Positions 9,222 to 17,494 of a DNA stretch of 22,967 nt are shown here, one piece after another. The stretch is from positions 1 to 22,967 of IMG/VR virus record IMGVR_UViG_3300045950_000327. One strand, given 5' to 3'. The notes under the pieces were generated by a model, which saw only the letters and a list, made by a program, of their open reading frames with translations, did no database searches and was not told the origin of the DNA. A program made the position numbers and the translations under genes. The stretch is from a virus. Each line of letters opens with the position of its first letter. Position 1 is the first letter of the stretch.

Positions 9222-10490
9222 TTATGCTGCGCACGCCACCCCACGAGCGGCAGCGACATCGTCGAATACCCGATCCTCGCCGGCCAGCACCGCCGCCTTG
9301 CCCGTCAGCGCCTGCCAGCGCAGAACGGCCACGTCGACGTAGCGCGGATCGAGCTCCATCGCGGCGCAGATGCGGCCCGTGGTCTCGGCTGCGATGATGG
9401 TGCTGCCGCTGCCGCAGAAGGGCTCATAGATGGATTCGCCGACCGCGCTGTTGTTGACCATCGGCCGGCGCATGCACTCGACCGGCTTCTGCGTGCCGTG
9501 CACGGTGGCCGCATCCTCATCGCCGCCGTTGGAGATCGCCCACAGCGTCGCCTGGTCGCGCGCACCCTGCCAATGGCCCGTCGCGCCTTTTCGCACGGCA
9601 TAGAGGCAGGGCTCGTGCTGCCAATGGTAGTCCCCGCGCCCCAGCACAAAGCGCGATTTCGCCCAAACGATCTGGCTCCGCACCGCGAAGCCGGCCGCCT
9701 CGAGGCTCTCGATGACGGTGCGCGCATGCACGCCCGCATGCCAGACATAGGCGACGTCACCAGGGAATAGGGCCCAGGCGGCGCGCCAATCGGCACGATC
9801 GTCATTCGCCACCTTGCCGGTGCGCATCGTCGCCGAGACGCCGGCCTCGTTCCGCCATTCCGGATCATAGTTCACGCCATAGGGCGGGTCGGTCACCATC
9901 AGATGCGGCCGCGCGCCGTCGAGCAGCCGAGCAACATCTGACGCGCTGGTGCTGTCGCCGCAGAGCAGGCGATGCGGTCCGAGCAGCCAGAGGTCACCGG
10001 GGCGCGTGACGGGCGCTACCGGTGGCTCCGGCGCCGGAGCGTCGGGATCGCCACCCGCCGTCCCTGGTGCCTCGCGCGCCGCATCGACCAGCAGTCGATC
10101 CAGCATCGCCCCATCGAAGCCGATCAGCCCGAGATCGAACTCCTCGGTGCGCAATGCGCGCAGCTCGGCTGCCAGGAGGCTCTCGTCCCAGGTCGAATTC
10201 AGCGCCAGCTGGTTGTCCGCGAGGCGATAGGCTCGCACCTGCGCTTCGGTGAGATGGCCGAGGCGGATGGCCGGGATCTCCTGCAGCCCGAGCGCCTTCG
10301 CAGCGAGAACCCGGCCGTGCCCTGCGATCAGGACCCCGGCGTCGTCGACCAGCACCGGCACGTTGAAGCCGAATTCGGCGATCGAGGCGGCGAGTTGCGC
10401 CACCTGCTCGGTCGGGTGCAGCCGGGCGTTCGCCGCATAGGGCGCGAGGGCGGCAACCGGCATCGTCTCGACGCGAAGGTCAGGCTGCAT
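9222..10490 (-). CDS. ParB-N / DNA N6-adenine methyltransferase fusion (DPPY type)
   Basis: The 422-residue protein has an N-terminal ParB/Srx-like domain (residues ~5-100, with IAGHGRVLAAKALGL at 55-69) and a conserved helical connector to ~135. A Pro/Ala linker (~140-163) leads to a beta-class amino-methyltransferase. Motif IV DPPYGVNYDPEW starts at 201 and the AdoMet-binding motif I EPFCGSGST is at 356-364, with the target-recognition part between them. DPPY is usual for N6-adenine enzymes. No restriction endonuclease is adjacent, so it is an orphan. Fusions of this kind are common in alphaproteobacterial prophages, where they methylate phage or host DNA. It overlaps the preceding paralogue by 11 bases and probably shares its transcript. 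The ParB-like part may steer the enzyme to particular DNA sites. Confidence 0.88.
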   Translation of the reverse strand: MQPDLRVETMPVAALAPYAANARLHPTEQVAQLAASIAEFGFNVPVLVDDAGVLIAGHGRVLAAKALGLQEIPAIRLGHLTEAQVRAYRLADNQLALNSTWDESLLAAELRALRTEEFDLGLIGFDGAMLDRLLVDAAREAPGTAGGDPDAPAPEPPVAPVTRPGDLWLLGPHRLLCGDSTSASDVARLLDGARPHLMVTDPPYGVNYDPEWRNEAGVSATMRTGKVANDDRADWRAAWALFPGDVAYVWHAGVHARTVIESLEAAGFAVRSQIVWAKSRFVLGRGDYHWQHEPCLYAVRKGATGHWQGARDQATLWAISNGGDEDAATVHGTQKPVECMRRPMVNNSAVGESIYEPFCGSGSTIIAAETTGRICAAMELDPRYVDVAVLRWQALTGKAAVLAGEDRVFDDVAAARGVACAA

Positions 10491-11949
10491 TCGCCGTGAC
10501 CTCCGGTGCCCGCTCGGCGGCGACCGCGTCGTAGCCGCGTCCGTCGCCGTCCAGCGTGACGCTTAGCTCGGGGAACAGCACGCGGTAGCGCGCGATGGCG
10601 AGGTCGATATAGGCAGGCGCGAGTTCGATCGCCCGCACGTTCCGGCCCGTCCGCTGCCCCGCGAGGATGGTGGTGCCGGACCCGGCGAAGGGCTCGAACA
10701 CGGCGTCACCGAGATTGGCGTAGGTCTGCAGGAGCAGTTCTGGCAGCGCCACCGGGAACACTGCCGGATGCTCGGTCTCGATCCCCCGGCCCTTGTGCCG
10801 CGTGATGCGCAGCACGGCGTCCGGGATGCGCATCTCCTGCACCGGCAGCCCGGCATGGGTGTAGGCCTTTACCTCGCCATCCGCGGCGCGCAGCCCGCTG
10901 CCCTTGTTCTCCGTCCCCGCCCATTTGCAGGGGATGATCTTGTTCGGCTGGCGGGACTTCCGGTTGAAGTGGAACACCAGCTCGAAGGCCGGCGCGAGGC
11001 GGCCGTTCCAGTCGCCCGGCAGTCCGGGGCCCTGGTCCCAGGCGTACAGCCCGAAGCGCCGCCAGCCCTGCGCGCGCATCCATTCCGCCCAGCCCTGCCA
11101 ATAGGGCTGCCATTCCCCATCGCGGTGGATCAGGCCCAGGTTGACCAGCGCCTGGCCGTCCTCCGCGAGGATGGCGGGAAGGTGCTGGAACACCCCCTGC
11201 ATCAGCGCGTCCCAATCCGAGATACCGCCGGTGGTGTAGGCGCGCTGGTTGCCATAGGGCGGGGAGGTGAGGAGCAGCGTCGCACGCTCGTCGCCGATGA
11301 CGCGGGCGACCGCCGCAGGGTCAGTGCTGTCGCCACAGAGCAGGCGATGCTCGCCGAGCAACCAGAGGTCGCCGGGGCGGGTGACGACCTGACGCGGCGC
11401 TTCGGGTTCCGCGTCGGCGGGATCCGGCTCGCTATCGGTCCCCGGATCGGCGGCCGGGTTGCCAGCGGCAGGCTCGGCACCGCGGGCAACCGCCGGGGTG
11501 GCAACGTTGCCAGTTTCGGTTTCCAGTCCCGCCAGCAGCCGGTCGATCTCGGTGCCATCGAAGCCGGTGAGCGCAAGGTCGATGCTGCCCATCTCCTGCA
11601 GCTTGGCGACCTCGGCGGCGAGCAGCGCCTCGTCCCAGCCAGCATTCAGCGCAATGCGGTTGTCCGCCAGCCGATAGGCGGCCTTCTGGGCTTCTGTCAG
11701 GCCGGCGCGGACGATGGTGGGGACGACGTCGAGGCCGAGCGACTGCGCGGCCAGCAACCGACCGTGGCCAGCGATGATCTCGCCGCGCTCGTCGACCAGC
11801 ACGGGCGCGACGAACCCGAACTCGAGGATGCTCGCCGCGATCTGCGCCACCTGCTCGGCGGAATGCGTGCGCGCATTCCCGGTATAGGGCAGCAGCGAGG
11901 CGACCGCGCGCGCCTCAACGGCGCTCGCAGCCCATGGGGTCTGGAGCAT
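10480..11949 (-). CDS. ParB-N / DNA methyltransferase fusion (SPPY type, probable N4-cytosine)
   Basis: The 489-residue protein is a clear paralogue of the next gene. Its ParB-like domain (IAGHGRLLAAQSLGL at 59-73) and connector (AYRLADNRIALNAGWDEALL at 91-110) align without gaps. The linker is longer and acidic (~140-186). The catalytic motif is TSPPYG (228-233) and the AdoMet motif is EPFAGSGTT (419-427), so it is also beta-class, but SPPY favours N4-cytosine methylation. The target region between these motifs is unlike that of its neighbour, implying a different recognition sequence. It is the first gene of the three-gene leftward set (this gene, the DPPY paralogue, DUF1810). Three TGGCAAC repeats lie 39-62 bases upstream of its start. 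Confidence 0.88.
   Translation of the reverse strand: MLQTPWAASAVEARAVASLLPYTGNARTHSAEQVAQIAASILEFGFVAPVLVDERGEIIAGHGRLLAAQSLGLDVVPTIVRAGLTEAQKAAYRLADNRIALNAGWDEALLAAEVAKLQEMGSIDLALTGFDGTEIDRLLAGLETETGNVATPAVARGAEPAAGNPAADPGTDSEPDPADAEPEAPRQVVTRPGDLWLLGEHRLLCGDSTDPAAVARVIGDERATLLLTSPPYGNQRAYTTGGISDWDALMQGVFQHLPAILAEDGQALVNLGLIHRDGEWQPYWQGWAEWMRAQGWRRFGLYAWDQGPGLPGDWNGRLAPAFELVFHFNRKSRQPNKIIPCKWAGTENKGSGLRAADGEVKAYTHAGLPVQEMRIPDAVLRITRHKGRGIETEHPAVFPVALPELLLQTYANLGDAVFEPFAGSGTTILAGQRTGRNVRAIELAPAYIDLAIARYRVLFPELSVTLDGDGRGYDAVAAERAPEVTANAA
11499..11512. repeat. 14-bp perfect palindrome inside the SPPY methyltransferase gene
   Basis: TGGCAACGTTGCCA reads identically on both strands and lies in the linker-coding part of the gene, where amino-acid constraint is low. 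Its half-site TGGCAAC is the same heptamer that is repeated three times just upstream of the gene and also occurs in inverse orientation at 11458-11464. It may be a secondary operator, a recognition site, or chance. Confidence 0.35.
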
Positions 11950-12560: not shown

Positions 12561-13490
12561 TCAGCGCCGTGCGCGCTTGGTGGGTCCGCCGCCCTGTACC
12601 AGGCTGCCGCGCGCCGCCGCCAGCACCTCCTCCGTCAGCGCCGCCAGCAGCCCCGCGCCGAGCCGCGCATGCTGCCAGTGCAGCGCGACATCCAGCCGTT
12701 GGCCGGGCACCAGCTCCACCAGCCGGCCGGCCGCTAGGTGCTCAGCGACGAGCGGCAGCGGGTTCATCGCCCAGCCAAGGCCTACCAGGACTCCATCCAG
12801 GAAGCCCTGCGTGGCGGGCACCCAGTGCACCGGCGCCTCGAGCGACGCGATCCCCAGCGCCTCCCGCGCCCAGCGGGCCTGCAGCCCGTCGCGCCGGTCG
12901 AAGCGCAGCATCGGCGCCCGCGCCAGTGCGCCCGGCTCCACCCCGCCGGGCAAGTGGCGGCGCAGGAAAGCGGGGCTCGCCACCGCGGCGTAGCGCAGCG
13001 CGCCGAGCGGGACGGTGCGGCAGCCCTGGACCGACGCGGGATCGGCCGTCACCGCGGCCAGCACCGCCCCGGAGCGCAGGCGGTCGGCGGTGTGGCCCTC
13101 ATCCTCAACCACAAGGTCGAGCTGCGCGCCGCTGCGCTCCGCGAAGCGGGCGGCGGCGGGCAGGAACCAGGTGCCGAGGCTGTCGGCGTTCACCGCGACG
13201 CGCAGGGCGGCCGGGCCATGTAACCCGGCGGCGAGGGCGGGCATCGCAGCAGCAAGCTCGCCCTCCAGCAGCCGCACCTGCTCGGCATGGGCACAGAGCT
13301 TCGCCCCGGCTTCGGTCGGCACCGGCGGCTGGCCGCGCACCACCAGCACGGCGCCCAGCCGCTCCTCCAGCGCGCGGACGCGCTGCGACACGGCGGAGGG
13401 CGTGACGCCGAGAACCGCGGCCGCGCGCTCGAAGCCACCTTCGCGGATGACGGCCGCAAGCGCGGCCAAGGCAGGGTAGTCGAGGGACAT
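12561..13490 (-). CDS. LysR-family regulator, ArgP/LysG type
   Basis: The 309-residue protein has an N-terminal winged helix of the ArgP (IciA)/LysG subfamily (LDYPALAALAAVIREGGFER, then AAAVLGVTPSAVSQRVRALE at ~22-41). An effector-binding domain follows, with typical elements (LRVAVNADSLGTWFLPAAAR, then GCRTVPLGALRYAAVASPAF). The ATG at 13490 begins MSLDYP, where family members normally start; an ATG two codons upstream is possible. ArgP/LysG regulators sense lysine or arginine and activate a divergent LysE/ArgO exporter, which is exactly the neighbour here, 69 bases away. The ~20 C-terminal residues are a basic extension. It is not a phage family and is probably cargo or inserted host DNA. 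Confidence 0.88.
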   Translation of the reverse strand: MSLDYPALAALAAVIREGGFERAAAVLGVTPSAVSQRVRALEERLGAVLVVRGQPPVPTEAGAKLCAHAEQVRLLEGELAAAMPALAAGLHGPAALRVAVNADSLGTWFLPAAARFAERSGAQLDLVVEDEGHTADRLRSGAVLAAVTADPASVQGCRTVPLGALRYAAVASPAFLRRHLPGGVEPGALARAPMLRFDRRDGLQARWAREALGIASLEAPVHWVPATQGFLDGVLVGLGWAMNPLPLVAEHLAAGRLVELVPGQRLDVALHWQHARLGAGLLAALTEEVLAAARGSLVQGGGPTKRARR

Positions 13491-13559
13491 AAGCATGGCT
13501 TCATATCTGTTAGAAAAATAAGCTAGCCTACATCGCCGGGGAATGCCAGGACAACCGCC
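13491..13559. promoter_or_regulatory. Divergent lysR-lysE promoter region
   Basis: The 69-bp gap between the divergent regulator and exporter genes contains an AT-rich core (CATATCTGTTAGAAAAATAA at about 13502-13521) that stands out in GC-rich surroundings. By analogy with lysG-lysE and argP-argO pairs it should hold the exporter promoter, the regulator promoter and the LysR-type binding site. The exporter has AGGA eight bases before its ATG. I could not define a clean T-N11-A dyad, so the operator itself is not placed. Confidence 0.6.
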
Positions 13560-14183
13560 ATGATCGACCCCGGCGCCTTCCTCAACGGCTTCGCCCTCTC
13601 CGCCGCGCTGATCGTCGCGATCGGCGCCCAGAACGCCTTCGTCCTGCGCCAGGGGCTGCGGCGCGAGCATGTCGGGCCGGTCGTGGCCTTCTGCGCGCTA
13701 GCCGACGTTGCGCTGATGGGAGCCGGCGTTGCAGGCCTCGGCGCGGCGCTCGATCGGCTGCCGGGGCTGGCGGCAGCGCTGACACTGGGCGGCGCGCTCT
13801 TCCTCGGCTGGTACGGGATCTCGGCGCTGCGCCGCGCCGCCCGTCCGGCCAAGGGCCTCGACGCGGAGGGACGCGGGGAGGCGCTGTCGCTCGGCGCGGC
13901 GCTGGCGCGCACCGCCGGGTTCACTCTACTGAACCCGCATGTCTATCTCGACACCGTGCTCCTGGTCGGCGTGGTGGGTGCATCGCAGCCGTCTGGGGGG
14001 CAGCCCGCATTCGTGGCCGGCGCGGGGCTGGCCAGCGCGCTTTGGTTCGCGCTTCTCGGCTATGGTGCGCGGCTACTTGCGCCGCTGTTCCGCCGGCCCG
14101 CCGCTTGGCGCCTGCTGGACGGGCTAGTTGGCGCGACGATGCTGGCGCTCGCTGCCGGCCTGGTCGCGCATGGGCTGGGCTGA
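13560..14183 (+). CDS. LysE/ArgO-family amino-acid exporter
   Basis: The 207-residue inner-membrane protein has the family's usual length and six predicted hydrophobic segments. The N-terminal signature GFALSAALIVAIGAQNAFVL contains the conserved GAQNAFVLRQG motif of LysE/ArgO (RhtB/LysE superfamily). The central NPHVYLDTVLLVG matches the conserved NPHxYLD motif. Members export basic amino acids, typically lysine or arginine, using the proton gradient. Pairing with a divergent ArgP/LysG-type regulator supports induction by the exported amino acid. Codon use is like that of the phage genes. It converges on the phage genes to the right with a strong inverted repeat between them. Exact substrate is not visible in the sequence. 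Confidence 0.9.
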   Translation: MIDPGAFLNGFALSAALIVAIGAQNAFVLRQGLRREHVGPVVAFCALADVALMGAGVAGLGAALDRLPGLAAALTLGGALFLGWYGISALRRAARPAKGLDAEGRGEALSLGAALARTAGFTLLNPHVYLDTVLLVGVVGASQPSGGQPAFVAGAGLASALWFALLGYGARLLAPLFRRPAAWRLLDGLVGATMLALAAGLVAHGLG

Positions 14184-14799: not shown

Positions 14800-15016
14800 G
14801 ACCATGTCCTCCCTGCCGCTGTCCCCAGCGGCGGTTGGCCTCGTTGGTGATCGCCTGGCGCAGCCAGGGGTCGGCGATCTCGTCCACCGACAGGGCGGCG
14901 ACGCCGTGGCGGTGCCAGGCCGCGGCACGCATGGCGGTGAGCTCGGCCTCGGTGGTCGGGCTGCGCAGCCGGGCGAGCGGGCTGCGCGCGAGAATGGGTG
15001 CGCCGGGGAGGCTCAT
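14789..15016 (-). CDS. Small phage protein (75 aa)
   Basis: The ATG at 15016 overlaps the resolvase stop (ATGA) and the stop overlaps the next gene, so it is translationally coupled on both sides, good evidence that it is real. The core reads AAAWHRHGVAALSVDEIADP and WLRQAITNEANRRWGQR, a compact helical protein with conserved-looking Trp residues. The C-terminus is Gly/His/Arg-rich. I know of no named family. Similar short proteins accompany RuvC-like genes in related prophages as far as I recall, but that is not verifiable here. Confidence 0.65.
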   Translation of the reverse strand: MSLPGAPILARSPLARLRSPTTEAELTAMRAAAWHRHGVAALSVDEIADPWLRQAITNEANRRWGQRQGGHGHGR

Positions 15017-15561
15017 GCGCGGCCTCCCCGCGCGTCGGTCACCCAGAGCAGCAGGGCGATGGCGTCGGCCTCGTTGTCGTCGGCCGGCGCAAAGCCGCGC
15101 GCCCGCATGGCCGCGATCATCGCCGCCTTGTCGGCGTTGCCCTTGCCGGTGGCGAAGCGCTTGATCGTCCCGACCGGCACGCCCTCGTAGGCGATGTCGC
15201 GCTCCTCACACCAGGCCGACAGGTGGGCGAGGAAGCCGCCGTAGAGATGCGCGGCGTCGGTGCCGGCGTGGGAGCGCACCTCCTCGAAGGCGATGCGCGT
15301 GAGGCCGCCGGTGAGCGTCGAGACCTCACCGAGCCAGCTGCGAAAGCGCAGGTAGCGCATGCCGCCACCCTCGAAGCGGCTGGGACGGAAGGTGACGGTG
15401 CCGGAGGTGATGCCACCGTCCTGGCCGCGCAGCGCCCATCCAGTCGTGGTGCCGAGGTCGAGGGCGAGGACGGCGGGGCGGCCGAGGGCCACCGGCAGCG
15501 GAGCCGCGATGGGCGGGCCGCTTGCGCCGGCGGCGGGCATAGGGAGAGTCACGGGAGCCAT
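15013..15561 (-). CDS. RuvC-like Holliday junction resolvase (phage type)
   Basis: The 182-residue protein shows the RNase-H-fold layout of RuvC-family resolvases. The first strand VLALDLGTTTGWAL carries catalytic Asp35, a second acidic site lies in IAFEEVRSHAG (Glu93/94), and the C-terminal DDNEADAIALLLW (161-173) supplies the last aspartates. The segment KRFATGKGNADKAAMIAAM is also typical. Such enzymes cut branched DNA made during phage replication before packaging. A ~28-residue Ala/Pro-rich leader precedes the domain. It is the first gene of a three-gene overlapping operon and lies just downstream of the GTGGGAC repeat field, so its promoter is probably inside or beside that field. Confidence 0.85.
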   Translation of the reverse strand: MAPVTLPMPAAGASGPPIAAPLPVALGRPAVLALDLGTTTGWALRGQDGGITSGTVTFRPSRFEGGGMRYLRFRSWLGEVSTLTGGLTRIAFEEVRSHAGTDAAHLYGGFLAHLSAWCEERDIAYEGVPVGTIKRFATGKGNADKAAMIAAMRARGFAPADDNEADAIALLLWVTDARGGRA

Positions 15562-15705
15562 GGGATCTCCGAGAGGGGATGGCTGTGGTGAGGGCGGCGA
15601 CGGCGCGGTTCTTGGCGGAGCTCGCCGTCGCTGCCCGGCTTCAGGGGGCGCGCTGCTGGTCTGGGCGGACCGGTGGCTCGGTGCGCCGAGCGGGAGCGCC
15701 GGGAC

Positions 15706-15994
15706 GTCCCACGCGTCCCGCCTCGTCCCACCCCTGCGACCGAAGTGGGACGGCGAAATGCGATCGAATTCAGATGTTTGCGCGGCCTTGTCCCACCTGT
15801 CCCACTCCAGGACGGCCCGCCTAAACCCGTATAGGAGAATGTATGTCCCGACCCATCACACCCTTCGCGTATGGCTCTAAGGAGCAGGTGGGACAGGTGG
15901 GACAGTGGGACAGACGTCCGCAAACCCGCTGAAAAGCTGGGCTTGCGCGTGTCCCACTTCGCCAGCGGAAATCGTCGAGGTGGGACAGTGGGAC
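15706..15994. repeat. Array of GTGGGAC / GTCCCAC heptamers between vapE and ruvC genes
   Basis: Eleven exact copies occur in 289 bases. GTCCCAC starts at 15706, 15725, 15790, 15799 and 15951; GTGGGAC starts at 15745, 15888, 15897, 15905, 15980 and 15988. Neighbouring copies are 8 or 9 bases apart. Two 16-mers are exact reverse complements: GTCCCACCTGTCCCAC (15790-15805) and GTGGGACAGGTGGGAC (15888-15903), separated by 82 bases. Chance would give well under one copy. The array occupies most of the 466-bp gap between the helicase and resolvase genes and contains the locally AT-rich stretch 15755-15780. An origin of replication with iterons or a multi-site operator is the most likely role. Confidence 0.75.
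15843..15932 (+). CDS. Possible 29-codon leader peptide within the repeat array
   Basis: An ATG at 15843 follows AGGAG (15833-15837) at workable spacing and opens 29 codons ending in TGA. The peptide starts MSRPITPFAYGSKEQ and then reads VGQVGQWDRR through three consecutive GTGGGACAG-type repeats. It is antisense to the surrounding operons. It could be a leader peptide or simply a product of the repeats. The ribosome site and the stretch before the repeats are the only positive evidence. Confidence 0.25.
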   Translation: MSRPITPFAYGSKEQVGQVGQWDRRPQTR

Positions 15995-16027
15995 AGAACG
16001 GCGGCCAAGTGAGGTGCCGGAGGGACA

Positions 16028-17494
16028 TCACGCGCCCTCCTCTGACGGGGAGGGCCGGCGGTAGCGCCATTCGCGAGCGACGCCGTCCTTGGCGGAGCCG
16101 GTCGTCTTGTAGCGCTCCCACCTCTTCGCCTTGAGGTAGGCGCCCACGCGCATCTGGTCGCCCTTCGTCCACTTCGCCGCTTCGATGCCGAGTGCCTGCT
16201 CCAGCACCTCGCCGATCGAGACGTCGGTCAGTGGCTTTGCCCTCGGCACGAAGCGCTCCTGCCAGTCCTCGAAGTGTCCGACGCCGACATTCACCGGCCT
16301 GCGCTCGGAGACGAGCCAGCGCTCGATCCGCGCGTCCCAGGCGTCGCCCAGGTAGCGCGCCTCCTGCGCCGCACTCGCTTCGGCGACGAGCGCGCGATCC
16401 TCGATCCACCAGGGCGCCCGGGCGCGATAGCGCGCGACGGCTTCGGCCCAGAGCTGGTCGCGATCGCGCCGTAGCCCGTCGAGGTCGATGTCGCCGCAGC
16501 GGAGCGGCCAGAAGCGCCGGTTGCCGGTCTCGTCGCGCAGATAGGTGTCCGGGTTCACCGTGCCGGCGAAGACGCATTGCCGCGGGACAGTGACCACGTA
16601 GCGTTCGTAGGGCGGCCGGTATCGGTCCGTGGTGCGGCTCAAGAAGGCCTTGATGCGCGACACGTCCGCTTGGCCGATGGCGTCGAGCTCCGCCATCTCG
16701 ATGATCCAGATGCCGCGCATCTGCTGCGCCGCGTCCTTCGAGCCGAGCTCGGCGAGCTCGTCGGTGAACCAGGGCTCGGAGGCCAGCACCTTCAGGGCGG
16801 TCGACTTGCGGATGCCCTGCGGCCCTTCCAGGATCAGCATGTGGTCGGCCTTGCAGCCGGGCTGCATGATCCGCGCCACGGCGGAGACCATCCACAGCGC
16901 GGCCATGCTGCGGTGGAGCGGCGTGTCCTCGGCGCCGAGATAGGCGACGGCCCAGGTGTCGAGGCGCGGCGTGCCGTCCCAGGCCAGCGCTTCGAGGTAG
17001 TCGCGCACCGGGTGGATGCGGATGTTGCGTGACACGGCGACGACGCTGCGGCCGACCACCACGGGCGGGACATTGATCTCGTGCCGCTGCAGCCATTCGG
17101 CGCAGCGCACGTCGTCGGCCTCGCCCCACGGGCGGGGGTGCACCGTGCCTGCCGGATCCCAGGGCAGCGCCCGAGCGACGATGATCTCCTGGCTGAATTC
17201 GTCGAACATGAGCGCGCCCGTGAAGGCAGCGTCGAGCGACAGTGCCGTGATGACATTGGCCTCGTTGCGCTCCGGCGCGCCGCCAGCGTCGATCCGCAGC
17301 AGTGAGGCCCAGGGCGGCCGGACGGGCGCGCGGCGGACGTCACCGGTGGCGTTCATGCGCTTGGCGGCCTCGACCGCCTCGCGCGCTTCGGCCTGTAGCA
17401 GGGCGAGGTGCTCGGCCGGCAGCGCGATGATCTCGCCCACCGGCAGGTGGCGCAGGCTGTCGAGGGTGGGGCGGTTCAGTGCGGGGGTGAGCAT
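16028..17494 (-). CDS. VapE-family replicative helicase/ATPase
   Basis: The 488-residue protein matches the virulence-associated E (VapE) family, SF3-like ATPases used for replication by prophages and phage satellites. The Walker A motif GPQGIRKST is at 224-232 and a Walker B-like IWIIEMAELD at 262-271. The signature GTVNPDTYLRDETGNRRFWP (311-330) carries the family's conserved Arg pair. The N-terminal ~130 residues are a less conserved adaptor and the C-terminal ~80 look like a winged-helix tail (MRVGAYLKAKRWERYKTTG). The ATG at 17494 overlaps the previous stop (TGATG). No separate primase is visible, so it probably recruits host primase or acts at an origin, with the adjacent repeat array the natural candidate. 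Confidence 0.9.
   Translation of the reverse strand: MLTPALNRPTLDSLRHLPVGEIIALPAEHLALLQAEAREAVEAAKRMNATGDVRRAPVRPPWASLLRIDAGGAPERNEANVITALSLDAAFTGALMFDEFSQEIIVARALPWDPAGTVHPRPWGEADDVRCAEWLQRHEINVPPVVVGRSVVAVSRNIRIHPVRDYLEALAWDGTPRLDTWAVAYLGAEDTPLHRSMAALWMVSAVARIMQPGCKADHMLILEGPQGIRKSTALKVLASEPWFTDELAELGSKDAAQQMRGIWIIEMAELDAIGQADVSRIKAFLSRTTDRYRPPYERYVVTVPRQCVFAGTVNPDTYLRDETGNRRFWPLRCGDIDLDGLRRDRDQLWAEAVARYRARAPWWIEDRALVAEASAAQEARYLGDAWDARIERWLVSERRPVNVGVGHFEDWQERFVPRAKPLTDVSIGEVLEQALGIEAAKWTKGDQMRVGAYLKAKRWERYKTTGSAKDGVAREWRYRRPSPSEEGA

Follow-up and report, generated by a model that had tools for sequence, protein, structure and literature searches.

A two-lobed repeat array next to a phage VapE helicase gene as a probable replication origin read by the helicase tail

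The locus studied here raises two questions, namely what a dense array of GTGGGAC heptamers between a helicase gene and a resolvase gene is for, and which protein reads it. The window (the whole stretch of 22,967 bases that was analysed) is a tailed-phage record from IMG/VR, whose other genes include ParB/methyltransferase-like genes, terminase subunits, tail proteins and a recombinase annotated as integrase. Two further observations were made in this record: two adjoining ORFs at 9222-11949 (minus strand) match the same ParB/DNA-methyltransferase families (phrog_498 and phrog_620) and form an apparent tandem pair, and an ORF at 12561-13670 (minus strand) resembles a LysR-family regulator (HTH_1, LysR_substrate; phrog_3736). 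With regard to the array, comparative analysis makes it highly probable that it is the replication origin of the phage, recognised by its own VapE initiator helicase through the C-terminal winged helix.

The array and the genes around it

The gene order on the minus strand is vapE, array and RuvC-like resolvase, with about 30-34 bp between the vapE stop and the first array site, and the array therefore sits between helicase and resolvase genes, as stated in the original prediction. The features are as follows.

15013-15561, minus strand: RuvC-like resolvase, downstream neighbour of the array
15706-15805: left half of the putative origin, six sites (one with a mismatch) as three outer, one reversed and two inner, at 15706 (-), 15715 (-, GTCCCGC), 15725 (-), 15745 (+, reversed), 15790 (-) and 15799 (-)
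15806-15887: centre between the innermost sites, 82 bp, candidate unwinding element
15888-15994: right half of the putative origin, six exact sites as three inner, one reversed and two outer, at 15888 (+), 15897 (+), 15905 (+), 15951 (-, reversed), 15980 (+) and 15988 (+)
15789-15805 with 15888-15904: 17-bp inverted repeat, 82 nt apart (TGTCCCACCTGTCCCAC / GTGGGACAGGTGGGACA)
16028-16167, minus strand: VapE C-terminal winged-helix region, from about residue 535 to the end of the 580-aa ORF
16028-17494, minus strand: vapE, initiator helicase (PF05272, 2e-85; phrog DNA helicase; Walker A GPQGIRKS)

Eleven exact GTGGGAC/GTCCCAC heptamers are present at 15706-15994, six on the plus strand and five on the minus strand, versus approximately 0.07 expected by composition in 289 bp. 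The whole window contains 14 GTGGGAC matches, versus 3.3 expected in shuffles and above all 100 shuffles, which confirms that the density in both orientations is beyond chance. A twelfth site with one mismatch (GTCCCGC) was found at 15715-15721, and no second array of such kind is present in the window. Counted from each innermost site, the offsets are 0, 9, (17), 54/63 (the reversed site) and 74-100; the spacing of 8-9 bases noted previously holds for the tandem sites and not for these further offsets.

The two copies of the inverted repeat are indeed 82 bases apart, as had been reported, but are 17 and not 16 nt long. They represent the two innermost tandem site pairs, one per half, in mirror orientation. 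A cruciform reading was considered and set aside, because the mirrored inner site pairs already account for the repeat. The 82-bp centre has 43% A+T versus 29% for the window, and it holds blocks CTTAGAGCCATACGCGAAG, TCCTATACGGGTTTAGG (minus strand) that are conserved across relatives with different heptamers. A search for structured RNA gave no Rfam match.

The start of vapE is more likely at M93 (17494) than at the start of the mechanical ORF, which runs to 17770. Structure prediction gave a winged-helix fold for the VapE C-terminal region and a motor of low confidence. The best PDB match of the protein was 7pds, PriRep1 with dsDNA in six chains (phmmer E 4e-46; Foldseek E 6e-17), and the superposition had a VIA Z of 15.2 and an rmsd of 10.5 over 291 residues; PriRep1 is the initiator of SaPI1. 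Two inverted half-arrays around an AT-richer centre, the position 3' of the helicase gene and the homology to SaPI1 PriRep1 together argue for the origin of a self-loading helicase. VapE-type helicases are common in phages, with matches in 991 of about 50,700 phage records.

At the other end of the protein (17327-17494, minus strand), the N-terminus of the window VapE before residue 130 is a short, alternative one. In four close relatives (L131, L134, L140 and L154), VapE extends upstream with a longer region resembling a TOPRIM-type primase, and identity of the window VapE to them starts abruptly at RMNATGDVRRA.

Array letters and the VapE tail

A first set of 80 VapE relatives was obtained by protein homology search. 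In the closest relatives of the window and many others of the 80, one heptamer was strongly enriched in the gap that follows vapE; in the 4.2 kb upstream, GTGGGAC was very rare. The letters of the array change as a whole set among relatives, including GTGGGAC, GTTGGAC, GTAGGAC, GTTGGGAC, GTTGGTGAC, GTGGTGAC, GTGGTGCA and others. An exact GTGGGAC search was rejected as a conservation test, since it misses switched arrays. For the same reason, it is misleading to regard the absence of the heptamer from close relatives as evidence against an origin, as the original prediction had done: relatives with 92% identity lack GTGGGAC because all of their sites have switched to another letter set. Between the window and L153 or L140, which belong to the same class, the sites are 100% identical and the inter-site DNA only 44-53%, implying that the sites are under selection.

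For some VapE relatives with 61-70% motor identity, the 0.9 kb scanned after vapE contained no array that could be recognised, so the origin may there be elsewhere or degenerate, and no clear array was found in the small plasmid pGO128 and phage VarioGold. In the plasmids Roseomonas p1318-5 (L217) and Komagataeibacter pKNA06 (L220), vapE is followed by dense arrays (GGTTGGG, GGTGGCA), and VapE together with its array therefore probably drives plasmids too. GTGGGAC arrays were also seen beside a terminase small subunit-like gene in eight contigs (L003, L021, L050, L059, L062, L082, L087 and L108), with no helicase recognised nearby.

Which protein follows these letters was examined in VapE pairs with motor identity of at least 0.95, divided into pairs with matching and with differing array letters. 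Identity of the winged helix was 93.6% in pairs with the same heptamer versus 57.5% in pairs with different ones, whereas the adjacent VapE segment (97.3% versus 97.4%) and RuvC (89.4% versus 88.0%) hardly differed. With motor identity corrected for, the effect in the winged helix amounted to 0.159, and 0 of 1000 label permutations gave one as large, while the adjacent segment and RuvC were near chance (59 and 198 of 1000 permutations, respectively). None of the 409 alignment columns before residue 530 distinguished arrays, versus 24 from residue 536 on.

An alignment of distant VapE relatives served to retrieve a second, independent set of 156 loci, most of them Pseudomonas prophages whose VapE is approximately 40% identical to that of the window. 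Joining of both sets resulted in 155 non-redundant loci in two lineages that are about 40% identical, and residues were counted from a conserved W/F. Of 112 loci with Arg at W+2, 111 have G at heptamer position 3, and all 43 with Lys have A, T or C there, a rule that fits 154 of the 155 loci. Similarly, Gln at W+4 is found with a longer core, GGTGAC (11/11), and Lys or Arg with GGAC (144/144). Replacement of Gly by Ser, Thr or Ala after R-V goes with T at position 1 (21/21 in lineage I), and that of Met by Ile in Q-x-R with A at position 1 (7/8). The latter is seen in a minimal pair, L234 and L254: one of 44 winged-helix residues is changed (Met to Ile) and, in arrays whose DNA can otherwise be aligned, G is replaced by A at position 1 of almost every site. 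For the window, the specificity residues M540, G543, R553 and K555 predict GTGGGAC, which is the heptamer observed. Fisher P for the association is 1e-37, a value that ignores relatedness and should not stand alone. On the motor-domain tree, about 10 changes were counted for the W+2 residue and 11 each for the base and for the joint label; thus, the rule does not reflect one inherited event.

The covariation and the residue rules together indicate that the C-terminal winged helix of VapE is the protein part that reads the array, presumably by direct binding, whereas the lack of covariation between RuvC and the heptamer implies that RuvC is not the reader. This lends strong support, from comparison of sequences, to an iteron-type origin bound by the VapE tail, one of the readings originally put forward. 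With the reader encoded by the last part of vapE, right beside the sites, the two would form a compact module.

On the other hand, reader and sites are physically linked, and part of the covariation could therefore be hitch-hiking. In a rival reading, a separate host or phage protein would bind the array and the linked VapE tail would covary through joint swapping by recombination, in line with the winged-helix codons ending about 30 bp from the first site and with the much inter-site divergence that comes with class A to B changes. We consider this improbable: RuvC, on the other flank of the array, shows no covariation, the same Arg-to-Lys/G-to-notG rule is found in two lineages with some ten independent switches, gene and array are separated by a small ORF plus about 380 bp in lineage II, and one Met-to-Ile substitution is matched by a base change in almost every site of otherwise alignable DNA.

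Slightly less probable still is the second reading offered originally, in which a sigma-like or winged-helix regulator of the phage would occupy the array as a multi-site operator and so control transcription of the ruvC operon. The many sites and the position upstream of ruvC would suit it, but no covariation with the heptamer is seen for RuvC, helicase genes of phages in which no RuvC match lies nearby are followed by arrays with this geometry too, and the covariation points to VapE itself. An operator array should accompany the regulated gene and have a promoter within or beside it; here, arrays track the helicase and not ruvC, and neither a sigma-70-like promoter nor a terminator was found in 15400-16100. 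VapE may autoregulate through the array as a side effect.

Array geometry across helicase families

When every array was aligned on its innermost sites, a similar layout, with arrays 3' of the helicases, was observed for VapE classes A to G, distant VapE, DUF927/HTH_56 (Cch-like) and D5/DUF5906. Innermost in each half are tandem sites at 0 and 8-9, in some arrays also at 17-18. A single reversed site lies at roughly 33, 42, 53 or 63, the outer sites are at some 63-105, and the two halves mirror each other about a centre of approximately 80-125 bp, whose A+T content exceeds that of the flanking DNA in almost every system compared. The alternative site distances differ by about 10 bp, or one helical turn; the tandem spacing of 8-9 bases, which had seemed odd because it is not one turn, is accounted for by this two-lobed and helically phased layout. 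Heptamers point inward in DUF927 systems and outward elsewhere. The presence of GTGGGACA in several helicase families is partly a product of how the loci were found, but the common geometry is not.

Two other groups of loci were noted. Arrays of GTGGGAC without clear common geometry accompany AAA_25 (RecA-like) helicases in L007, L053 and partly L020, three loci that were found by heptamer search and have a C-terminal HTH of another kind. In DUF927 helicases, the motif varies too between L203, L205, L208 and L201, L204 (TGTGGGACA, TGTGGAACA, TGTGGTACA), and the C-terminal domains of these loci differ slightly as well (RGRN to RGRA, KSNG to KSND), which suggests a second, putative code.

The number of sites per half peaks at six in the first set (46 of 93 unique half layouts, which are related by descent and not independent), and six-site halves are arranged as 3+1+2 or 2+1+3. 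Permutation of inner versus other counts gave 27.8 (sd 3.7) six-site halves versus the 46 observed, and 9 halves with more than six sites versus 1. The strict count of six was not reproduced in the independent Pseudomonas set, in which sites are degenerate; there, six positions make up one side of the positional template and five the other. Six sites per half suggest one site for each subunit of a double hexamer, and two such halves are compatible with, although no proof of, an initiator that loads as two hexamers.

Based on these data, each GTGGGAC heptamer would be the docking site for one winged helix, and one VapE hexamer would assemble on each half-origin with one site per subunit. The two hexamers would then open the A+T-richer centre and unwind in both directions, and a few residue changes together with a set-wise change of the sites would create a new origin specificity. 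Whether VapE, DUF927/Cch and D5/DUF5906 share one origin architecture with exactly six sites per half, one for each subunit of either hexamer in the double hexamer, and whether the C-terminal winged helix follows a simple residue-to-base code through which phages repeatedly switch specificity, is in our opinion an evenly balanced question.

Comparison with known replication systems

Classical iteron plasmid origins (RepA/pi/RepE) have direct repeats of about 17-22 bp, in one orientation and helically phased; the present array has a core of 7-8 bp, both orientations and a tandem spacing of 8-9 bp, and does not belong to this type. The alpha protein of P4 is a primase-helicase with a Pox_D5-like C-terminal winged-helix origin-binding domain and ori1/crr iterons, and P4 needs two separate loci, unlike the present array. 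The P4 iteron GGTGAACAG resembles AGGTGGGACAG; the P4 origin-binding domain was absent among the structural matches. Equally doubtful as the operator is a role of the array in replication incompatibility or copy control, on the lines of P4 crr or handcuffing iterons, in place of initiation itself: twelve sites are many, and iteron arrays often serve both initiation and copy control or incompatibility, but the window has no other such array and this one is symmetric about an A+T-richer centre. It also follows the initiator gene immediately on the 3' side, an arrangement shared with SaPIs (PMC7581432).

An origin read by the VapE tail has its closest counterparts in SaPIs. The C-terminal domain of SaPI Rep binds short repeats just downstream of its own helicase gene, apparently as two hexamers (PMC7581432, citing Ubeda 2007). 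Structures are available for SaPI1 PriRep1 (7pds), SaPIbov1 Rep (8tch, DUF927) and SaPI5 Rep (7om0, D5 type). The phage locus likewise carries an array of short repeats just past the helicase gene, conserved in relatives, a helicase homologous to a SaPI Rep (the 7pds match) and, judging from covariation and residue rules, a helicase C-terminal domain that sets origin specificity. It differs from SaPI Rep in that it occurs in tailed-phage genomes of proteobacteria, that heptamer and residue code are resolved, and that the layout is two-lobed, with up to six sites per half, one of them reversed, and common to VapE, DUF927 and D5/DUF5906. In SCCmec, the repeats to which the C-terminal domain of Cch2 binds adjoin the 3' end of the helicase gene (PMC7581432), but the putative origin has three AAGTG iterons in one 23-bp block, versus twelve sites in two mirrored halves here. 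In PLE satellites of Vibrio cholerae, the RepA_N DNA-binding domain and the origin covary while the rest is conserved, specificity swaps are repeated and cognate pairing is needed (PMC8263062). The present system is similar in the covariation of DNA-binding domain and origin and in the recurrent swaps, but PLE iterons are semi-palindromic and about 30 bp long, and their reader is an N-terminal RepA_N domain and not a helicase tail.

The kind of system is known from SaPIs and SCCmec, and covariation with specificity swaps from PLE satellites (PMC8263062). Among the open-licence papers searched, neither this array (by its heptamer or as VapE with iterons) nor an origin of a VapE-type helicase or its recognition has been described. 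What seems new is the phage VapE origin, the residue-to-base code and the two-lobed architecture common to three helicase families.

For these phages, the array would mark the origin and the covariation would name its reader. The residue rules make origins predictable from protein sequence and testable by single substitutions, and an arrangement of six sites per half is relevant to the question of how two hexamers of a self-loading helicase come to be placed around duplex DNA facing each other. That specificity switches so often suggests that origin identity is under selection, which has been shown for PLE satellites (PMC8263062), and phages perhaps switch repeatedly to escape interference by related replicons. 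The joint change of the sites and a few tail residues would thus amount to a readable code for finding the start point.
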